From the NCBI RefSeq assembly GCF_011057685.1, contig NZ_LNFY01000009.1, positions 62,001 through 126,000 of the forward strand: a stretch of 64,000 nt of DNA. Reading direction: 5' to 3'. A program made the translations under genes and the position numbers. The stretch comes from Thermotoga sp. Ku-13t. GTDB lineage: Bacteria; Thermotogota; Thermotogae; Thermotogales; DSM-5069. Each line of letters opens with the position of its first letter. Within the stretch, counting starts at the first letter, position 1. The notes under the pieces are model-generated. The model did no database searches. It was given only the letters and a program-made list of their open reading frames with translations, and was not told the DNA's origin. This document shows, piece by piece, positions 43,200-52,638 of the stretch.

Positions 43200-43373
43200 A
43201 TCATCGTTTTCACAAAAGACCTCCTCTCTCGAGATGCGTTACAACCAGTCTTGACCGTTTCCGATGGTCCGCTCTACCCTACCCCTTCGTGGGTTCACGA
43301 TGGCTTGATGCCGGTTGAAAGCGTGGGGTGGGCAACCTTTGCTCGCTTGCAAGCTTTACCAAGTCGTAATTAA
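43200..43373 (+). other. Relic open frame in the RpiR-TusA gap, possible end of a transposase gene
   Basis: Between RpiR and TusA (43164-43451) one open frame of 57 codons reads VLTVSDGPLYPTPSWVHDGL, then MPVESVGWATFARLQALPSR and a stop at 43371-43373. It has no start signal. The M/VPVE ending recalls C-termini of IS200/IS605-type TnpB proteins, but no catalytic motif is present, so this is a guess. Nothing else is seen in this gap. Confidence 0.2.
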
Positions 43374-43451
43374 AGTCAACAATCATGCAAAGTGACAATG
43401 TTAGTATTTTTCTGGAGATTGAGCATTTTTTCACAAAAGGAGGTGTGGTGC

Positions 43452-43691
43452 ATGGCGAAGTATCAGGTTACGAAGACGCTGGATGTCAGAGGAGAAGTTT
43501 GCCCGGTGCCCGATGTTGAGACCAAGAGGGCTCTGCAGAGCATGAAGCCTGGCGAGATCCTCGAGGTGTGGATCGATTATCCGATGTCGAAAGAAAGAAT
43601 CCCGGAGACTGTGAAAAAACTCGGGCACGAGGTTCTGGAAATCGAAGAAGTTGGTCCGAGCGAATGGAAGATCTACATCAAGGTGAAGTGA
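43452..43691 (+). CDS. TusA-family sulfur carrier protein
   Basis: The 79-residue SirA/TusA-fold protein carries persulfide sulfur on the cysteine of its CPxP motif, here TLDVRGEVCPVPDVETKRAL. PGEILEVWIDYPMSKERIP and EVGPSEWKIYIKVK complete the fold. ATG 43452 follows AAAGGAGGTG. It is the first gene of the sulfur operon TusA-YeeE-DsrE-DsrF-DsrH. The same fold recurs as the second half of the regulator at 45791. Confidence 0.93.
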   Translation: MAKYQVTKTLDVRGEVCPVPDVETKRALQSMKPGEILEVWIDYPMSKERIPETVKKLGHEVLEIEEVGPSEWKIYIKVK

Positions 43692-43706: not shown

Positions 43707-44705
43707 ATGGTCTGGACGGGACTAATAATCGGAATCATATTCGGTGTAATTCTTCAGCGCGGTAGGATCTGCTTCAATTCGGCTTTCAGAGATGTTCTGA
43801 TCTTCAAAGACAACTACCTGATGAGGCTCGCTGCCCTGACCCTCGCTCTTGAATCCATCACGCTTTTGATCTTCGCTCAGGCTGGCTTCATAGCGCTCGC
43901 TCCCAAGCCGCTGAACTGGCTGAGCAACATCGTTGGTGGATACATCTTCGGACTTGGAATGGTTCTTGCCGGTGGCTGTGCGTCCGGTGTTACCTACCGT
44001 TCTGGTGAAGGTATGACGACGGCATGGCTCGCGGCCCTGGCCTACGCTTTGACAGCGCGCGCCACGCAAGGTGGTCTGTTCTCGAACTGGTTGAAATGGG
44101 TGAACCAGTACAGCATAACGATCGACAGCACAAATCCAGTGTACGCTAAGAAGATAGGTCCAACCATCGCGACCGTTCTCGGAATCAATCCGTGGATCGT
44201 CACGATAATCTTCGCCGCGCTCCTGATCTGGTACGCCTTCGGCGTGAAGAACAAATCTGAAAGACCTTCCAAGCTGAATTGGATCGCTGCTGCAGTTCTC
44301 ATAGCAATACTCGCGCCCATAGCCTGGTGGACGAGTGCGAAGACGGGAAGGAACTACGGTCTTGGGATCACCGGCGGATGGATCAACCTGATCTCGGTCT
44401 ACACAACCAACGCGAAGCTGAGCTGGGAAGGCGCCGAGATCATTGGAATAATCATCGGTGCTGCCATATCTGCCGTTGCGGGCAAGGAGTTCAAACTGAG
44501 AATGCCGAAGAACCCATTGACCTACATACAGGTGCTCGTTGGAGGATTCCTGATGGGCTTTGGTGCCGTGACAGCTGGTGGGTGCAACATAGGTCACTTC
44601 CTGACCGGTGTTCCAACGCTGGCGATCTCTTCGATAGTCGCGTCCATTTTCTTCATCCTCGGAAACTGGACGATGGCCTGGATAATGTTTGGAAGACAGA
44701 AATGA
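43707..44705 (+). CDS. YeeE/YedE-family (sulfur or selenium transport) membrane protein
   Basis: 332 residues with about nine helices in two repeated halves. Each repeat has a conserved cysteine motif: LAGGCASGVTYRSGEG (about 91) and TAGGCNIGHFLTGVP (about 291), as in the thiosulfate importer TsuA. The start MVWTGLIIGIIFGVILQRGR, followed by ICFNSAFRD, is also typical (RGR.CF..AFRD). It lies 15 bases after TusA. The pair TusA-YeeE is a known unit for thiosulfate or polysulfide uptake, with the imported sulfur passed to TusA. Confidence 0.9.
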   Translation: MVWTGLIIGIIFGVILQRGRICFNSAFRDVLIFKDNYLMRLAALTLALESITLLIFAQAGFIALAPKPLNWLSNIVGGYIFGLGMVLAGGCASGVTYRSGEGMTTAWLAALAYALTARATQGGLFSNWLKWVNQYSITIDSTNPVYAKKIGPTIATVLGINPWIVTIIFAALLIWYAFGVKNKSERPSKLNWIAAAVLIAILAPIAWWTSAKTGRNYGLGITGGWINLISVYTTNAKLSWEGAEIIGIIIGAAISAVAGKEFKLRMPKNPLTYIQVLVGGFLMGFGAVTAGGCNIGHFLTGVPTLAISSIVASIFFILGNWTMAWIMFGRQK

Positions 44706-44724: not shown

Positions 44725-45081
44725 ATGAAGATAGGGATCCAGGTGATGGTGCCGCCTTACACGTACGAAGATCTCGACACCGCGATGAAGATTGCCGAGG
44801 CGGCGCTGGAGAAAGGACACGAAGTGACATTGTTTCTCTTTGCAGACTCTGTCATTTGTACCAACAAGAACATCAAGCCGTTGAGGATAGACCGAAACAT
44901 TCCGCAGAAGCTGATAGAGATGATGAAGAAAGGCAAATTCGAAGTTCACATCTGCGGTATATGCATGGACTACAGGGGTATAACACCGGACATGATAATA
45001 GAAGGCTCGAAGCCAAGCGGCCTGCCTGAACTTGCAAACCTTCTCGCCACCTGCGACAGGTTCATAAACCTTATGGCTTGA
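44725..45081 (+). CDS. DsrE-family sulfur-relay protein (118 aa)
   Basis: DsrE/F-fold protein with KIGIQVMVPPYTYEDLDTAM, EKGHEVTLFLFADSV, and the cysteine loop FEVHICGICMDYRGI (two Cys, one likely the active persulfide site), ending LLATCDRFINLMA. ATG 44725 follows AAGAGGAGGAAA. It is followed by DsrF- and DsrH-like genes, the same order as dsrEFH/tusDCB, a heterohexamer that transfers sulfur from TusA. Confidence 0.88.
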   Translation: MKIGIQVMVPPYTYEDLDTAMKIAEAALEKGHEVTLFLFADSVICTNKNIKPLRIDRNIPQKLIEMMKKGKFEVHICGICMDYRGITPDMIIEGSKPSGLPELANLLATCDRFINLMA

Positions 45082-45090
45082 GGTGAGACC

Positions 45091-45444
45091 ATGAAGAAGC
45101 TGCTGTTCGTGGCATATCAATCACCGGTTGGGAGCATCTGGGTCAACGAAGCGTTCAGAACCGCGTTTGGAATGTATGGGGAAGACTTGGAGCCGAGCGT
45201 GCTTTTGATCGAGGAAGCTTCTGTGGCACTCTCGAAAAACACGAAACCTGAAAGGCTCGGTCTGCTGCCGCTGTCGATCTGCCATAAGTACATCAAGAAC
45301 TACGGAACGAAGGTTTACGTAGTAAAACAGCACCTTGAGAAGTACAGGGTGAAGGAGCTGGATGAGAACTTCGGAGCACAAATAATAGACGAATCCAACT
45401 TGTCTGAGTTCTTGCACAGCTTCGACTACGTTATCTTCATGTGA
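45091..45444 (+). CDS. DsrF/TusC-like sulfur-relay protein (117 aa)
   Basis: DsrE/F-fold protein: KKLLFVAYQSPVGSIWVNEA, FRTAFGMYGEDLEPSVLLIE, and a CHKYIKNYGTKVYVVKQHLE stretch. In DsrF-type proteins the N-terminal strand and the acidic LLIEEA loop are usual. It starts 9 bases after the DsrE-like gene and likely forms the second subunit of a DsrEFH-like complex. Only one cysteine, in SICHKYI, is seen. Confidence 0.82.
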   Translation: MKKLLFVAYQSPVGSIWVNEAFRTAFGMYGEDLEPSVLLIEEASVALSKNTKPERLGLLPLSICHKYIKNYGTKVYVVKQHLEKYRVKELDENFGAQIIDESNLSEFLHSFDYVIFM

Positions 45445-45455
45445 GGTGACGCAGG

Positions 45456-45719
45456 ATGGCTTTGATACTCGTCAAGTACGGAACGGATCATCCCGTTGAG
45501 CAGCTCAAAATAAAATCTGCAAAAGCCGAAGACAAGATCGTGCTCATACAGAACGGCGTCTACTGGGCTTTGAAAGACATCGAAACGCCTGCAAAAGTCT
45601 ACGCGATCAAGGACGATTTCCTCGCGAGGGGATACTCTGAAGAAGATACGAAAGTGAGTCTGATCAGCTACAGCGAGTTCATAGACCTTCTCGAAAGTGA
45701 GGAAAAGTTCATAGGGTGA
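45456..45719 (+). CDS. DsrH/TusB-like sulfur-relay protein (87 aa)
   Basis: The 87-residue protein has ALILVKYGTDHPVEQLKIKS, DKIVLIQNGVYWALKDIETP (the KIVLIQNGVYWA segment is the best DsrH mark) and VYAIKDDFLARGYSEED. The catalytic cysteine found in many DsrH proteins is not present, so it may be structural. It is the last gene before the hairpin at 45750-45770. Confidence 0.85.
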   Translation: MALILVKYGTDHPVEQLKIKSAKAEDKIVLIQNGVYWALKDIETPAKVYAIKDDFLARGYSEEDTKVSLISYSEFIDLLESEEKFIG

Positions 45720-45749
45720 AGCTGGTAAAATAAAGTTATGAACAAGACA

Positions 45750-45770
45750 GGCCGCGGGTCAACCGCGGCC
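45750..45770 (+). terminator. Hairpin terminator after the dsr-like genes
   Basis: GGCCGCGG (45750-45757), loop GTCAA, CCGCGGCC (45763-45770), followed by TTTG. A strong 8-bp GC stem with a short T-run, ending 20 bases before the regulator start at 45791. It should cut or reduce read-through from the sulfur operon into the regulator gene. Confidence 0.75.
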
Positions 45771-45790
45771 TTTGTAAAAGGTGAGGTTTC

Positions 45791-46342
45791 GTGAAGCGTA
45801 GAAAAAGTGTGTTGAATCTTTTCAAGATTCTGTCCAACCAGACACGGCTCGACATCCTCATGCTTCTGAGGGACAGTTGTCTCACAGCTTCCGAGGTGGC
45901 TGAGAAACTCAAAATCGATCTCTCAACGGCTTTCAGATATTTGAACCAGATGGTTGAAAACGGAATACTCAACGTTGTTAAAACCCCCAGCGGGGACAGA
46001 TACGATTTCTCTTCCGTTCGCGTGCTCAGGATGCTCGAAGAGGCTGTGGGGCTGGTGTACGAAGATGGAGAAGATCTCAAGCTGCAGAGTCACAAGGTCG
46101 ATGAATCAACGCAGCTGGAAAAGTGTCTGGACGCGCGTGGTCAGATGTGTCCCGTGCCAGAGATCATGACCAAAAAAGAACTGGAAAAACTTCAACCTGG
46201 AGAAACGTTGATCGTGCTGTGCGATTATCCACTCTCAGCAGAAAGGATCGTCAGCTTCGCGTTGAGAAACGGTTACAGGGTGAACGTTGAAAAGTTCGGG
46301 CCAGTCACGAAGATCTACATATCCCTGCCAGAGGACAGTTAG
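45791..46342 (+). CDS. ArsR-type HTH regulator fused to a TusA sulfur-carrier domain
   Basis: 183 residues. Residues about 1-85 are an ArsR winged helix (LFKILSNQTRLDILMLLRDS, then ASEVAEKLKIDLSTAFRYLNQM and GILNVVKTPSGDRYDF). Residues about 105-180 are a full TusA domain with the persulfide cysteine, KCLDARGQMCPVPEIMTKKE, and GETLIVLCDYPLSAERIVSF. The carrier cysteine could act as the sensor: persulfidation by the same relay proteins encoded upstream would change DNA binding. GTG 45791 follows AAAGGTGAG. It sits directly behind the TusA-YeeE-DsrEFH genes, so it probably regulates them. The sensing mechanism is inferred. Confidence 0.88.
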   Translation: MKRRKSVLNLFKILSNQTRLDILMLLRDSCLTASEVAEKLKIDLSTAFRYLNQMVENGILNVVKTPSGDRYDFSSVRVLRMLEEAVGLVYEDGEDLKLQSHKVDESTQLEKCLDARGQMCPVPEIMTKKELEKLQPGETLIVLCDYPLSAERIVSFALRNGYRVNVEKFGPVTKIYISLPEDS

Positions 46343-46438: not shown

Positions 46439-46614
46439 TGAGTTTTCCACAACCCTGATCTGACACACTGACGTTTCGTTGTTGGAGAACGACATGCATT
46501 GTCCTCGAAGGCCTGTATGATTCCTGTGTGATAGAATGAAAAGTGAGGATCTGAGTGATCTCACACCTCGCAGTTATAGCCTCGTTTGTTTTTACATATT
46601 TGTGGGGGATAGGT

Positions 46615-47352
46615 TTGATCGAAAGTTTTATTTTCATATCACCGTGCACGGATGCCTTCATCGATAATCCAGCTGAAAGACTCCACGGAGCCTTAATAAA
46701 GACAATAGCGAGTAAGTTCTCGATCGACAGGATTCACGGGCCGTCTCGCGATCGTTTCTCTTTATCTCTCATCTACGATCTTTCCCTCGCTTCTGTCAGG
46801 CATTTCAAGAAGGGTGAAACTTATTTCTTCAGGATTACCTCGATGTCTGATGACATTCACATATGTTTCGTCAAACAGCTTGCACTCAATCCGAAATTGA
46901 AACTGCAGGATGTGGATTTCGAAGTCCTCGAAGTTCGAACGGCTACAAAGTTCAGCTTTGACGAATCGAGTATGGACACAATTTATTTCATCTCACCAAC
47001 GACTTTCAGAATTTCCAAGAATCAAAACCTTCCTTTGCCTGATCCAGAGAGAATCGCCAGAAATTTGTCGAACCTGCTGGGGGTTGCTGTGGACTTACCA
47101 CCACTGAAGGAAGCGTGCATCAAGACCAAAGCGGTGAACTTTGCGAAACACGTTGTTATCGGTTTCACAGGTTACGTACGCTTCGACAAACCACTCCGCG
47201 AGCTTCATTTGTTCCACTTTGCGGGGATCGGTTATTCCACCGCCAGAGGCCTCGGTTCAGTCATTGTCAGGGGTGTGGTGCCACTGGATGAAGAAGTTTC
47301 CAGACGACACCAGAGGTTCATAAACCATGAAACGAAGAGATGTAGAGAATAA
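46615..47352 (+). CDS. cas6: Cas6 pre-crRNA endoribonuclease
   Basis: 245-residue RAMP protein that cuts CRISPR repeat RNA. It begins ESFIFISPCTDAFIDNPAER, has a central ferredoxin fold, and ends with GFTGYVRFDKPLRELHLFHF and the glycine-rich loop AGIGYSTARGLGSVIVRG, the best hallmark. TTG 46615 was chosen because GGGGGAT lies just upstream and residues before it (up to GTG 46555) do not fit. It is the first gene of the I-D locus and the only cas6 in the window. It may therefore also serve the I-B array, but the two repeats differ greatly. Confidence 0.85.
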   Translation: MIESFIFISPCTDAFIDNPAERLHGALIKTIASKFSIDRIHGPSRDRFSLSLIYDLSLASVRHFKKGETYFFRITSMSDDIHICFVKQLALNPKLKLQDVDFEVLEVRTATKFSFDESSMDTIYFISPTTFRISKNQNLPLPDPERIARNLSNLLGVAVDLPPLKEACIKTKAVNFAKHVVIGFTGYVRFDKPLRELHLFHFAGIGYSTARGLGSVIVRGVVPLDEEVSRRHQRFINHETKRCRE

Positions 47353-48319
47353 GATCAATCGTATTTACAGGATCATGAGCAAGTTGATGAAAGGCACAAA
47401 GGTCCACACACGACAACTCGCCGAGGAGTTGAACGTGACGGTTCGCACAGTCGAAAGGTACATCGAGGAGATGAAGATGGCGGGTATACCCGTGGTTAAT
47501 CGTCGTGGGGTTGTCGAGTTGCAGAAAGACTTCGTTGTGGACCATGACTATACGCTATCGCTTACAGCGAGGCAGAAAAAGATACTCCTACTGATCGTGG
47601 AGTTGGCGAAGAAATATTTTGGTTCTCTCTACTTCGATGATTTGAAGGAAATAGAACTGAAAATTCGCGACTCGCTACAGCTGGATAGCTTCTTCTGGAA
47701 GTATGCAACGAGGATCGACTATTATTACCTTCTGAATCCGAAGTCTGAATTCGTAGATCGAAACATCATCGAAGCTCTGGAGGAAGCGATGGAGCGTCGC
47801 TACGTCGTTTCTTTCACCTACAGACATCCGATCCTGGGATGGAGGAGCTATATTGTCGAACCATACAGGTTCGTATTCACCGACGAGCATTGGTATTTGT
47901 TCTGCCGAGAAGCCTCGAGAAACTTCGAGTTACTTCTGCGTGTGTCACGCATACATCCGCCGGTGCAGGCCACGGGCAAGATTTTTTCAATGCCCACGAC
48001 TCGCGAGATAGAGTCTAAGCTTTCTAAGGTCTGGGGTACGCACTTTTCGAACAACAGCTATCAGATCGAAGTTTGGTTCTCAAAGAAGGTCGCAAACAAA
48101 GTGCGAGAAACCATCAGACATGAAACTCAACGGGTTCAGGAACTTGAAGACGGATCTCTGATCTATTCTGTGAACATTTGTGGATACAGAGAATTCATCT
48201 CGTGGGTTCTGTCGTGGGGAGCGGAGGCCAAACTGTTATCACCAGAGTGGATGAGAAAAAAGGTGATCGACGAAATAGACCGTATGAAAGCCATTTACGC
48301 TCAAGACGACAGACATTAG
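47327..48319 (+). CDS. WYL-domain transcriptional regulator
   Basis: 330 residues. An N-terminal HTH reads TRQLAEELNVTVRTVERYIE (about 27-46). A WYL domain in the middle reads EEAMERRYVVSFTYRHPILG, then VEPYRFVFTDEHWYLFCREA with the W-Y-L signature. It is followed by the WCX-type C-terminal extension (IEVWFSKKVANKVRETI). It overlaps cas6 by 26 bases and precedes cas10d. WYL regulators often sit in CRISPR loci and sense nucleic-acid ligands to control cas expression; that role is inferred here. Confidence 0.9.
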   Translation: MKRRDVENKINRIYRIMSKLMKGTKVHTRQLAEELNVTVRTVERYIEEMKMAGIPVVNRRGVVELQKDFVVDHDYTLSLTARQKKILLLIVELAKKYFGSLYFDDLKEIELKIRDSLQLDSFFWKYATRIDYYYLLNPKSEFVDRNIIEALEEAMERRYVVSFTYRHPILGWRSYIVEPYRFVFTDEHWYLFCREASRNFELLLRVSRIHPPVQATGKIFSMPTTREIESKLSKVWGTHFSNNSYQIEVWFSKKVANKVRETIRHETQRVQELEDGSLIYSVNICGYREFISWVLSWGAEAKLLSPEWMRKKVIDEIDRMKAIYAQDDRH

Positions 48320-48382
48320 TCGTTTTGAGAATACCATTTGCGGATTGATTATATTCCTTGTTGAAAATGGGGGGACTGAAAG

Positions 48383-50938
48383 ATGGCGGAACAAGATAGG
48401 GAAGGAATGGTTAAAGCCATACTGAACGTAAAGAATTTCTATGGGTCTCGATATCACACGAGCGGACCAAAGGCCGGAAGATCTTTTGCCGATCACTTCG
48501 TGAACGTGGCTCTTGTGAGTTACCAGCTGGCAAAACTGTGTGAAAGTCTGGGGATACTTTCCCCTGAGCACGTGAAGCTTTCGTTCTACGCCGGATTGAT
48601 CCACGACACAAACAAGATCTTCGAAAGTACCTTGAGGCAGAGTGCAGACCTGGAAAGTATAAGGCAAATTCTTGAAAGACTCGACGTCAATGACGAGGAT
48701 GTTCGCCGCGATGAGAGTCTGAAAATTCTGCAGGCCTGTGTCGGTCTTCATCAAACGAGTGGACTCAGCGGGATGGAACTTCTTTTCAACAAGGGTGTTT
48801 TTGACGAAAAAGTGAAGATCCTGACGAGGATCGTCAAGTTCGCAGACAAGTTCGACAACTTCAAGGACGCCGATCTGTCGATCGATGATAGCTTGAAAGC
48901 ATCGTGCGAAATAGTCCTCGAAGAACTAAGCGAATTGACGAATAAAAAATTTCAGTTCACACACCTGTTCTACTTCAAGCTCAAAGAGTACAGAGGGGCT
49001 CTGACCGAAATCATCTACGAAGTGATGAACAGGTTGCTGGAAGAAAAATTCGAAATGGTCGCCATCGCGCGGTTTCCAAATGGAACCGTTTATCTGTCAA
49101 AACGCAGAGTGACTTTCGATGAACAGAGTTACAAGCAGTTTGTTGACGAACTTTCGGATGAGATTCTCAACGATTCCCCCTTTGCGAACGCTGTTGCCGA
49201 TGCGGCAGCGACCTTCTCACAAACTGGCGTCAGGTTCTCAGACAGCGCTTTTGAACTGGACTGGCGAAGTTTGTTGAGCAGAATTTTATCTGTATCGAGG
49301 AAATCCAAATACGAAGCGAGCGCAGTTTTCGTGGATGGCTTGAGAAAGCTGTTCGATAAGCTCAAAGAGGGATTGTCTGAAAAGAGTGAAGAATACAGAA
49401 AAGCTCGTGCCATGTTCAAGGAAATTATTGGCGTCGATCCTGATGAGCTACCGAGGTCGGGGAAACTCGAGGCTATCTATTCCAAGATATCCGAAAAGAT
49501 TTCCATCGAGAATGACCAGCTGGATGAAATTGTGCAAAAGTTAATGTCGCTGGAAGAAGTGTACAGAACTTTCCAGAGTAAACAGAAGAGTCCAACGCTC
49601 CAAGCCGTGATGAGAGAATACCTTGAATCGACGCTCGAGCTGAACGGTTTCTGGTTACCAAGATCCGAGATATTCAAAAATGCATTTGCACACTACGGAA
49701 GATACGAAACAACCTGCTCCGTGTGTGGAATGAGTGCGGAAAAGGATCGCATAATCGAGATCAGATCAGCAGAAAGTCCCGATCTGAAAGTTCAGTATTT
49801 CACGAACAGGCTCACCGCCCACGCGAAAAAGGAACCTCGAAGGATGGTTTGTCAGTTCTGCAGGTTACAGTTTCTGGCAACGAAGGTAAAGCTACCCTTC
49901 AGCAGTGAAAAGGAAGTTCTGTTCATTTTGATTCCGTCCAATTTCTACCCACAGGAGTTTCTCGAGATACTCAAGAAAAGCCACGATGAACTACAGAATG
50001 CGCCCTCAAAAGGAACGCGCGCAAAGATCCCGCAGAACATCATGAACCTCATCTACGGACCAGCCGGAACTTCCAAAAAACTTCCACACACCGTTTTCGG
50101 CAACATGACGTACTTTTCTTTCACTTCCTCGGCGGCAGATAGCTGGCAAAAACTCGCCACTCTGGCGACTTTACACGCTGTCAGGATCGTTCGGAACCTG
50201 CCGGTCAGGGTACTCGTCACCACGGACGTGCTGCTTTTACAGGATGACATCGAATTCAGTTCCGACGTGTACATCAAAGATTTACCGGCGGTTGCGCAGA
50301 AGATTCTGGAAAGTTCTTCAAGTATGGATATGTGGGCTCAATTCGCTGAATATCTCGATGATGGCAGAGTTCTTGAAAACTTCTTTGAATTTGTAAAACA
50401 GCCATCGAACATCGATAGAGCCGCGCTGGTCGGCAGGCTGTGGGGAGAAACGATCAGGAACGATGTCGCGTTCAATCTGTTCAGGATATTCGGGGGTGAT
50501 GAAATGAGAGAGATCCAGGAGATGGCAAAACTTGCAAGAAATTGGGCCCATCGGAGGACTAACAGTCCGAAGGTGAGTGATCATCAGTACCTGAAGCCCT
50601 TCACGGACGCTTTCTCAGCCGTGAGGAAGTTCGATCCGAAGCTGGGCGAAGACGAAAAAGTCCTCGAAGCGCTCCTGTTGGAATCCGTTTCAAGGTCCCT
50701 ACCAGAAAACGCGGGTATCGATCAGGCAAAAGCCTTTGTTGACGAGTTTCTAAACTTTCTCAAAACTATCGGGAATGGTGATCTCTTGAGAGGGAGGGAG
50801 ATACTCATCGCCGATTTTTCCAAGTACAAGAACGTGTTTCTGGGGAACGTCAGGCTGATTTCGCTTGAGAGGAAAGTTCAAGGCGAAAAATCCGGTGAGG
50901 AGGGTGAGCCAGATGGTTCTGAAAAGTCCAGTAGCTGA
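48383..50938 (+). CDS. cas10d: Cas10d (Csc3) with N-terminal HD nuclease, type I-D
   Basis: 851-residue large subunit of the I-D effector. The N-terminal HD domain reads GRSFADHFVNVALVSYQLAK, then FYAGLIHDTNKIFE (HD pair) and VGLHQTSGLSGM. Zinc-binding knuckles CSVCGMSAEKD and CQFCRLQF are at about 453 and 492. A palm-like region follows, without an intact GGDD. In I-D systems Cas10d supplies the HD nuclease that cuts target DNA, since the Cas3 lacks it, and this matches the Cas3 here. ATG 48383 follows GGGGGGA. It overlaps csc2 by 26 bases. Confidence 0.93.
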   Translation: MAEQDREGMVKAILNVKNFYGSRYHTSGPKAGRSFADHFVNVALVSYQLAKLCESLGILSPEHVKLSFYAGLIHDTNKIFESTLRQSADLESIRQILERLDVNDEDVRRDESLKILQACVGLHQTSGLSGMELLFNKGVFDEKVKILTRIVKFADKFDNFKDADLSIDDSLKASCEIVLEELSELTNKKFQFTHLFYFKLKEYRGALTEIIYEVMNRLLEEKFEMVAIARFPNGTVYLSKRRVTFDEQSYKQFVDELSDEILNDSPFANAVADAAATFSQTGVRFSDSAFELDWRSLLSRILSVSRKSKYEASAVFVDGLRKLFDKLKEGLSEKSEEYRKARAMFKEIIGVDPDELPRSGKLEAIYSKISEKISIENDQLDEIVQKLMSLEEVYRTFQSKQKSPTLQAVMREYLESTLELNGFWLPRSEIFKNAFAHYGRYETTCSVCGMSAEKDRIIEIRSAESPDLKVQYFTNRLTAHAKKEPRRMVCQFCRLQFLATKVKLPFSSEKEVLFILIPSNFYPQEFLEILKKSHDELQNAPSKGTRAKIPQNIMNLIYGPAGTSKKLPHTVFGNMTYFSFTSSAADSWQKLATLATLHAVRIVRNLPVRVLVTTDVLLLQDDIEFSSDVYIKDLPAVAQKILESSSSMDMWAQFAEYLDDGRVLENFFEFVKQPSNIDRAALVGRLWGETIRNDVAFNLFRIFGGDEMREIQEMAKLARNWAHRRTNSPKVSDHQYLKPFTDAFSAVRKFDPKLGEDEKVLEALLLESVSRSLPENAGIDQAKAFVDEFLNFLKTIGNGDLLRGREILIADFSKYKNVFLGNVRLISLERKVQGEKSGEEGEPDGSEKSSS

Positions 50939-51884
50939 GAAACTGAGACGTTTCTTTGTCGAGGAGGAATTTCCAGTCAAACCAGAATCTCGCTTTGTCA
51001 GCGTCGTTGTGTTGAGAAAATCAGAATCCGAACTCATTCTTCGAACCGATGAAGGCATCAGCAAAGAGCTGACGTACATGGGATTCGTGGACAACAACAT
51101 CAAGGCTCGAGTTGTGTTCTCCAAGAGGAAGGTCGTGGCGCCGGAGAGGAGAACGGGAAGAGAGTTCTTAAGGTTTTACGGGTTGTTCGATGAGGACTGT
51201 TCAATCAACGGACAGATGTGCGGAAAGTGTGTGGATTGCCAGCTGTACGGTTTTGCCGCGGCTGAGAAAGGAGGCACGTCGAAAGGTAGCCTGAAATCAA
51301 GAGTCTTGTCCGACACGGCCTATTCCGTTCTTCCAGCGTCGGAGATAACGGAGATTCTCACGATCAATGCCTTGAGCGAGTTGGGCACTATGACTGAATT
51401 CACCGGGCAGGGATTGGAAATGCGAGAGAGCCTCGCGAGCGTGGAGTGTATCAAACCTGAAACGCATTTTGTCGATGTAGAAACTCTCAGAGACGTTCGT
51501 GAAGAAGAGTTCGTCTACTGTTTAGGCAACATTCTGAGAACGACGAGGTACGGTGCTGTCACTTCAAGGATCGGTAAGGTGAAAAACGAAATAGTCGCGA
51601 TCATAGGTTCCGACGCAGAGCTACTCAGCTCCCTGCAACTGACGAAGGCTGTCTGGGACAAACTTGATGCATCAATGAAACAGCACCCTCTATCCCACGA
51701 TATGGTGAAGGATACACTTTTGAAATGCGTTGAGGAATCCTTAAAAGCTGCACCGGCAACTGTACAGATCGTAAAGGAACAGGAACTTGAAGAGCTGCTT
51801 CAGGAAATACGTGAGATTTATGCAAATCCTGTTGATAAGGGATTTGTGAATGCTCTGAAAAACTTAAAGAAACTTCCAATTTGA
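50913..51884 (+). CDS. csc2: Csc2 (Cas7d) backbone subunit, type I-D
   Basis: 323-residue RAMP backbone protein that lines the crRNA. It begins KSPVAEKLRRFFVEEEF, with KVVAPERRTGREFLRFYGLF and a zinc-like cluster INGQMCGKCVDCQLYGFAAA, as in the Csc2 crystal family. ILRTTRYGAVTSRIGKVKNE follows. ATG 50913 follows GAGGAGGGTGAG, inside the cas10d end; the frame opens further left but without a start signal. The length and motifs are normal. Confidence 0.92.
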   Translation: MVLKSPVAEKLRRFFVEEEFPVKPESRFVSVVVLRKSESELILRTDEGISKELTYMGFVDNNIKARVVFSKRKVVAPERRTGREFLRFYGLFDEDCSINGQMCGKCVDCQLYGFAAAEKGGTSKGSLKSRVLSDTAYSVLPASEITEILTINALSELGTMTEFTGQGLEMRESLASVECIKPETHFVDVETLRDVREEEFVYCLGNILRTTRYGAVTSRIGKVKNEIVAIIGSDAELLSSLQLTKAVWDKLDASMKQHPLSHDMVKDTLLKCVEESLKAAPATVQIVKEQELEELLQEIREIYANPVDKGFVNALKNLKKLPI

Positions 51885-51906
51885 TACCGAAGCGAGATGA
51901 TCCGCG

Positions 51907-52638
51907 ATGTACCTTTATGGATGTGTTTTAACAACGCATGAGGAACTTTTCTTTGCCAGCAAGGAAGTTTCCTCGATGTTCGTGACGATTCCTTTCATAG
52001 GAAACTACGCCCTAGCTTACGCGCTTGGCTTTGCCCAGCAAAGCTACATTGGATTCGATACCCCTCGCTACCAGAAAGACTTGAATGGTGTTAAAGCTTA
52101 CGTGTTTCCCGCGAAATTCGTGGAGTACAACTGGACAACCACGAGTTTCAACTCGATAGGTGAAGGATTCTTCCTCAGCATGAAAGAAAATGTGGTGGTC
52201 GATGCAACTGTTCTGCGAGAATATGCTGATGCTGGGAAAGGTCCCAGACCACGCAATTCTCCGCAAATCGGGCAGTTCAAAATGATCGCACCGGAAAGTG
52301 TGGCAATCTTTTACGTTCTCGCACCCGAGAAAATCGCGTTTCCTAAGTTCATACGGCTTGGCAAACTGATGAGTAAATGTGAGCTGAGCGTTGAAATGCT
52401 GGAAGCAGAAGAGCGTGAAGGTGAATTCGTGTGCCAGCATCCCATAAATCCGATCGATTTGTCGAGTTCGTACGATCTGCTCAGCTACGAGGTCATTTCC
52501 ATGAAACCTGTTCCATTGATCGAAAACGTGAAAATGCGCGGTAAATACCTGGAGGTTCGAACGCTTATTGAACAGAACATAAAGCAGACAGTGTTTCTGC
52601 CAAGCCAAGTCTGTTATTTCGCATCGGGGAGTGGTTAG
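51907..52638 (+). CDS. csc1: Csc1 (Cas5d-like) subunit, type I-D
   Basis: 243-residue Cas5-type subunit of the I-D complex. It begins YLYGCVLTTHEELFFASKEV, then IPFIGNYALAYALGF, IGEGFFLSMKENVVVDATVL and the pattern KLMSKCELSVEMLE, characteristic of Csc1. It binds the crRNA 5' handle and stabilises the foot of the complex. It starts 22 bases after csc2; the next gene, cas3, begins about 12 bases after its stop. Confidence 0.9.
   Translation: MYLYGCVLTTHEELFFASKEVSSMFVTIPFIGNYALAYALGFAQQSYIGFDTPRYQKDLNGVKAYVFPAKFVEYNWTTTSFNSIGEGFFLSMKENVVVDATVLREYADAGKGPRPRNSPQIGQFKMIAPESVAIFYVLAPEKIAFPKFIRLGKLMSKCELSVEMLEAEEREGEFVCQHPINPIDLSSSYDLLSYEVISMKPVPLIENVKMRGKYLEVRTLIEQNIKQTVFLPSQVCYFASGSG

Follow-up and report, generated by a model that had tools for sequence, protein, structure and literature searches.

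An ArsR-TusA fusion protein predicted to regulate a thiosulfate import operon in Thermotogota

Directly behind the genes tusA-yeeE(tsuA)-dsrEFH, Thermotoga sp. Ku-13t encodes one protein that joins an ArsR-type winged helix to a TusA sulfur-carrier domain. The fusion recurs in Thermotogota with a single invariant cysteine, and it co-occurs with the YeeE importer and with a conserved motif upstream of tusA, which is its predicted operator; on sequence comparison, this link between regulator and operator appears fairly strong. Coordinates refer to the window, which is the whole stretch of 64,000 nucleotides analyzed.

The fusion protein and its gene neighborhood

The ORF check of the window placed the fusion gene exactly at positions 45791-46342 (+), with a GTG start and a product of 183 amino acid residues. 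The protein shows a winged helix (residues 1-90, with a helix at 76-89), a linker predicted to be disordered (residues 92-107) and a TusA domain (residues 113-177). According to Pfam, the N-terminal part matches HTH_20 (6.8e-9) and HTH_5/ArsR (5.6e-8) in residues 14-63 and the C-terminal part matches TusA (PF01206, 1.7e-18) in residues 113-177, all above the curated cut-offs, and HTH_5 was matched by 23 of 24 members of the fusion family. AlphaFold2 predicted both folds confidently. In Foldseek, the top matches of the ArsR part were CzrA, SmtB and HlyU, with SqrR (6o8k) also among the top matches, and the TusA part matched 3hz7 with a TMt of 0.82. The winged helix of ArsR/SmtB transcription factors is therefore found both by profile and by fold, and in sequence the DNA-binding part is most similar to HlyU (4k2e). 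The score against the NCBIfam model of metalloregulators ArsR/SmtB (NF033788) was 31.6 bits, below its cut-off of 55.

In the C-terminal part, the TusA fold comes with the conserved cysteine of the CPxP motif: the sequence is RGQMCPVPE, in which CPVP is intact and the cysteine is C120 (codon 46148-46150, +). By the properties of its family, this domain is predicted to be a carrier able to accept sulfane sulfur and pass it on. Sequence comparison placed it nearest to the TusA of the operon and to YeeD/TsuB, and it contains the TsuB-like motif DYPLSxERI; it resembles TsuB but is not one by curated score (NF041048, 21 bits, below the cut-off of 147.5). The source genome, a member of Thermotogota, encodes one fusion and one stand-alone TusA, and no second fusion.

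The operon ahead of the fusion gene lies entirely on the forward strand. It starts with tusA (43452..43691), which is TM0983-like and has a TsuB-type DYPxSxERI motif, followed by the thiosulfate transporter gene yeeE/tsuA (43707..44705; NF052577, 568 bits against a cut-off of 400), the TusD-like dsrE (44725..45081; PF02635, 1.4e-25), the TusC-like dsrF (45091..45444), assigned by its operon position, NCBIfam TusC at 1.2e-6, which is below the cut-off of that model, and Pfam DsrE at 0.005, and dsrH, the tusB gene (45456..45719; PF04077, 2.6e-13). An earlier note, made from the sequence alone, had described a winged helix and an intact CPVP TusA domain in one protein behind TusA-YeeE-DsrEFH, and the ORF, Pfam, NCBIfam and gene order bear this description out.

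Between dsrH and the fusion gene, a possible -10 box of the fusion gene itself (TGGTAAAAT, 45726..45731, +) is followed by a stem-loop (45749..45771, +) with a 9-bp stem, a weak T tract and z = -2.7, which is a possible partial terminator or leader hairpin. Inspected by eye, a similar TGnTAAAAT/TATAAT-like box precedes the stem-loop in about 10 of 15 genomes, and the gaps of L032, L051 and L053-L064 show in most genomes a strong stem-loop of varying sequence. The regulator gene may thus have its own promoter, together with a leader hairpin or a partial terminator.

A CRISPR gene set begins immediately after the fusion gene (46555-52638). It contains Cas6 (PF10040), a WYL regulator and Csc2 (PF18320, 1.4e-86), which points to type I-D; an ORF of 851 amino acids lying between these genes, with no Pfam match at 1e-5, is probably Cas10d. 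In families f2, f3, f8 and f10, the operon adjoins a dihydrolipoyl dehydrogenase gene, often accompanied by an extra gene for a glycine-cleavage H-protein (L033:5671-7420, L071:7045-8780, L041:1805-3601 and L036:7469-9196), and several of these genomes have, at another place, a standard gcvH adjacent to gcvP as well. By analogy with LbpA in sHdr systems, this suggests that sulfane sulfur may be handled on lipoyl groups.

Distribution and conservation in Thermotogota

A search of 103 Thermotogota genomes in all six frames found the full-length fusion in 36 of them (families f1, f2, f3, f9, f10 and f11). The order of the operon is retained in nearly all fusion genomes. Since the two-domain protein is kept in so many genomes, mostly with the same neighbors, and both folds are predicted confidently, it is not a chance read-through. 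In the alignment of the 35 distinct fusion proteins, C120 is invariant (35/35) and is the sole invariant cysteine; no other cysteine is present in more than 19 of them (C30 in 19/35, C144 in 7/35).

The fusion follows the importer closely, being present in 36 of the 41 genomes with yeeE (34 full-length and two partial, one broken across frames in G031 and one cut by a contig end in G086) and in two of the 62 without it. These two, G039 and G045, retain dsrEFH or part of it, and their loci (L033, L080 and L078), with the fusion and dsr genes and without a yeeE match, offer a natural test of the need for the importer. In G039, and by sequence also in G041 and G045, the gene directly upstream of the detached fusion gene codes for another ArsR-like protein, which is small and contains a CLCEL box (L033:4787-5044). 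Five genomes have yeeE and no fusion, so the operon can function without it.

Several genomes have the fusion gene detached or inverted, and in G087 and G088 it is the first gene of the operon. In the tree of TusA domains, the main clade of fusions (31 rows, with a support of 99/99) stands apart from the TusA of the operon. The tree suggested that in G086-G088, where the gene is first in the operon and the helix has diverged, the two domains had been joined a second time, independently; however, one clade was not rejected by the AU test (p = 0.50), and a second event was not accepted. Genome G064 has decayed remnants of the fusion gene in two places, L046:3693-3908 (-) and L047:530-853 (-), in which the helix part is joined to an ETLLVLCDY piece of TusA, each adjoining an ORF of about 910 amino acids. 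In a single-sequence search of genome contigs, matches reached only as far as Pseudothermotoga; no relatives of the fusion were found in viral contigs, and plasmids had stand-alone TusA only. No description of an ArsR-TusA fusion was found in open-licence papers.

The operon promoter and its two motifs

Two motifs, A and B, are conserved across genera upstream of tusA. Motif A is TTTACCAAnnnGTAA; some genomes have a longer form, the perfect palindrome TTGGTAAATTTACCAA. In the window it reads TTTACCAAGTCGTAA (43355..43369, +), and the left half of the dyad (cttgcaag) reaches to about 43347; the source genome contains a single exact copy and no copy that differs by one letter. Using leave-one-genus-out matrices (p of about 0.003-0.03 each, on the correct strand), motif A was detected in 31 of the 33 loci in which the fusion carries a standard recognition helix (consensus STxYRHL), in none of the four loci with the operon and no fusion (L041, L045, L049 and L050), and in none of the three loci in which the helix of the fusion has diverged (L037, L038 and L048). 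The two standard-helix loci that were missed, L035 and L036, contain similar but degraded sites 50-52 nt ahead of a perfect TATAAT. As expected of a local regulator, a conserved operator at the neighboring operon thus co-occurs with it (31/33 against 0/7 loci), and we infer that the winged-helix dimer of the fusion would bind motif A. The link between helix and operator is supported by two to three phylogenetically independent contrasts; nearly all of them point the expected way, but they are too few for significance. Where the fusion gene sits elsewhere, the operon still has motif A; the motif is absent upstream of the detached fusion gene itself in 11 of 12 loci inspected for autoregulation.

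The predicted -10 box of the operon is TAGTAT with an upstream TGn (43402..43407, +), at a distance of 49 nt from where the motif A 20-mer begins, and the transcription start is predicted at about 43414 (+). Genus after genus, this distance is 48-51 nt, with z = 4.3 at exactly 50 (genus-averaged), and the center of motif A lies near -52. The match to a -35 box is no better than background (2.31 against 2.58 of 6). Fixed spacing and a poor -35 box together form the layout of an activator-dependent promoter, although the argument is weakened by the extended -10 found in 8 of 29 promoters, which makes a poor -35 box ordinary there.

Motif B (TTGTGAAAAAATGCTCAA, 43419..43436, -) spans about +6 to +23, overlapping the predicted start site, and is found near that site in most genera, including where the fusion is absent. 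It was considered as the operator of the fusion and rejected, as it is present in all four genomes without a fusion and matches a Rex operator of T. maritima. This published operator of TM0201, ATTTGAGAAATTTATCACAAAA (PMC8836258), scored 16.0 bits on the motif B matrix, a value reached by 0 of 20,000 shuffles; motif B is therefore most likely a Rex site, a prediction from its sequence. Two proteins with a Rex-type N-terminal domain are encoded in the source genome. Weaker sites related to motif B were found upstream of gap and hcp, gene names that were read from their sequences. In L096 (G000:C1:540214), the apparent hybrid-cluster-protein gene (hcp) is preceded, at 16 bp, by a site that differs from motif B at two positions; this gene is another candidate target of Rex or HcpR.

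Proposed regulation by sulfur on the carrier cysteine

In T. maritima, yeeE, which is in one unit with dsrE/tusA homologs, was 42.6-fold upregulated with thiosulfate and slightly with S0, and no regulator was named (PMC9431562). Motif A and the fusion both occur in the genus of T. maritima (L053, with a TusA identical to PDB 1jdq (TM0983) over the aligned part); genomes G090 and G091 likewise pair such a TusA with the same operon, motif A and the fusion. From the gene order we infer that the T. maritima fusion is TM0978, a hypothetical protein in a published listing (PMC4331810). The single cysteine C17 of StYeeD, a TusA-type partner of YeeE, was found in persulfide, perthiosulfonate and thiosulfonate forms (PMC11073785).

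We lean, by a modest degree, to the reading that the fusion is a dedicated activator with a single target, tusA-tsuA(yeeE)-dsrEFH, acting at motif A, gated by sulfur on C120 and combined with an NADH gate by Rex. Thiosulfate would enter through YeeE, and sulfur would load onto C120 of the TsuB-type TusA domain as a persulfide, thiosulfonate or perthiosulfonate, as on YeeD/TsuB, either directly from thiosulfate or from the TusA/DsrEFH relay of the operon. The winged-helix dimer would sit at motif A just upstream of the promoter, compensating the poor -35 box, and the loaded regulator would turn the promoter on. Rex at the transcription start would serve as the NADH gate and keep the promoter off at high NAD+, so that import of the electron acceptor would be switched on in the presence of thiosulfate and at high reducing power. 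Support for this reading comes from the fusion, its conservation, its co-occurrence with the importer, the operator, and the link of operator and recognition helix; the readout of sulfur through C120 and its effect on DNA binding are deduced, and the activating sign, taken from the position of motif A, is probable. The second conserved motif at the same promoter counts against it, as do the five yeeE genomes that lack the fusion, and the disordered linker leaves no visible path from C120 to the DNA-binding domain.

The proposal of the earlier note, a regulator that senses sulfur load on its own carrier cysteine, gains from the invariance of C120, from the association of the fusion with importer and operator, and from the thiosulfate induction of the T. 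maritima operon (PMC9431562). Its generic persulfide flux is here narrowed, the likely route of the ligand being thiosulfate via YeeE and a TsuB-type TusA.

Most known ArsR proteins are repressors, which counts against an activator. If the fusion were one, the apo protein would block the promoter at motif A and loading of C120 would release it, as in SqrR, BigR and SoxR. Its fold, with CzrA, SmtB, HlyU and SqrR among the top matches, is in line with this, as is the repressor function of SoxR and sHdrR, which are characterized ArsR proteins responsive to sulfur (PMC12423496), and thiosulfate induction is compatible with either sign. However, repressor sites usually overlap the promoter, a place held here by the Rex site, whereas motif A is clear of -35 and -10, at a fixed spacing to the latter and with a poor -35 box, and we consider repression rather unlikely. 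Still more doubtful is a docking sensor, independent of the state of the cysteine, in which YeeE or the DsrEFH complex would bind the apo-regulator, as TsuA binds TsuB, and let it go to DNA once these partners are busy. The flexible linker, the strict association with yeeE and the resemblance of the TusA domain to the YeeD/TsuB that docks on YeeE would suit it, but docking alone would not require an invariant sulfur-accepting cysteine, and G039 and G045 retain the fusion without yeeE, though with dsr genes. That motif A is the site of another regulator, with the fusion controlling something else or only carrying sulfur, seems very improbable: the operator assignment comes from sequence comparison and the presence of the motif is partly confounded by phylogeny, but motif A is lacking in just those loci that have no fusion or a fusion with a divergent recognition helix, and its single copy in the source genome is what a local regulator would have.

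Among known systems, the fusion shares its fold, and the best sequence match of its DNA-binding part, with the persulfide sensors SqrR, BigR, YgaV and HlyU. The HlyU cysteine aligns with M24 of the fusion in the aligned region, and the ArsR part of the fusion has no conserved cysteine. The two-cysteine switch of the SqrR/BigR/SoxR/HlyU type was not found in this domain, C30 being present in only 19 of the 35 proteins and at another position; the fusion is therefore a new ArsR variant. ArsR-rhodanese fusions likewise join the ArsR DNA-binding domain to a sulfurtransferase, which is a rhodanese there and TusA here. With TsuA-TsuB (YeeE-YeeD) of Spirochaeta thermophila and E. coli, the system shares the transporter family and a TsuB-like TusA domain with an invariant cysteine; TsuB, an uptake partner and thiosulfate-decomposing protein, has no DNA-binding domain, whereas the fusion has one.

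SoxR and sHdrR of Hyphomicrobium denitrificans are ArsR repressors responsive to sulfane sulfur (PMC10451225, PMC12423496). Like the fusion, each is an ArsR-type regulator of a thiosulfate pathway, with a YeeE-family transporter (theirs SoxT1B) and TusA encoded alongside, but their TusA is separate and their sulfur bridge forms between two ArsR-domain cysteines, while in the fusion TusA is attached and the conserved cysteine pair is absent. Loading of SoxR by SoxT1B-imported sulfur, perhaps via TusA, has been proposed (PMC11582611). SoxT1B, TusA and SoxR are the nearest functional parallel, the transfer of sulfur from TusA to the repressor being a proposal there.

In Thermotogota, both proteins form a single polypeptide that has only one invariant cysteine and for which an operator is predicted; a single heat-stable protein, once purified, and a probe of 25 bp would therefore be enough to address this question. 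The fusion is a named candidate behind the so far unexplained 42.6-fold induction of T. maritima yeeE by thiosulfate, and the activator reading would tie thiosulfate import to NADH control. Tentatively, the fusion may be a one-component activator whose effector, rather than a free molecule, is a sulfur atom handed covalently along the import relay to its own fused carrier domain and integrated with NADH through the Rex site, which would make it a substrate-on-carrier sensor distinct from all persulfide sensors with a cysteine pair.
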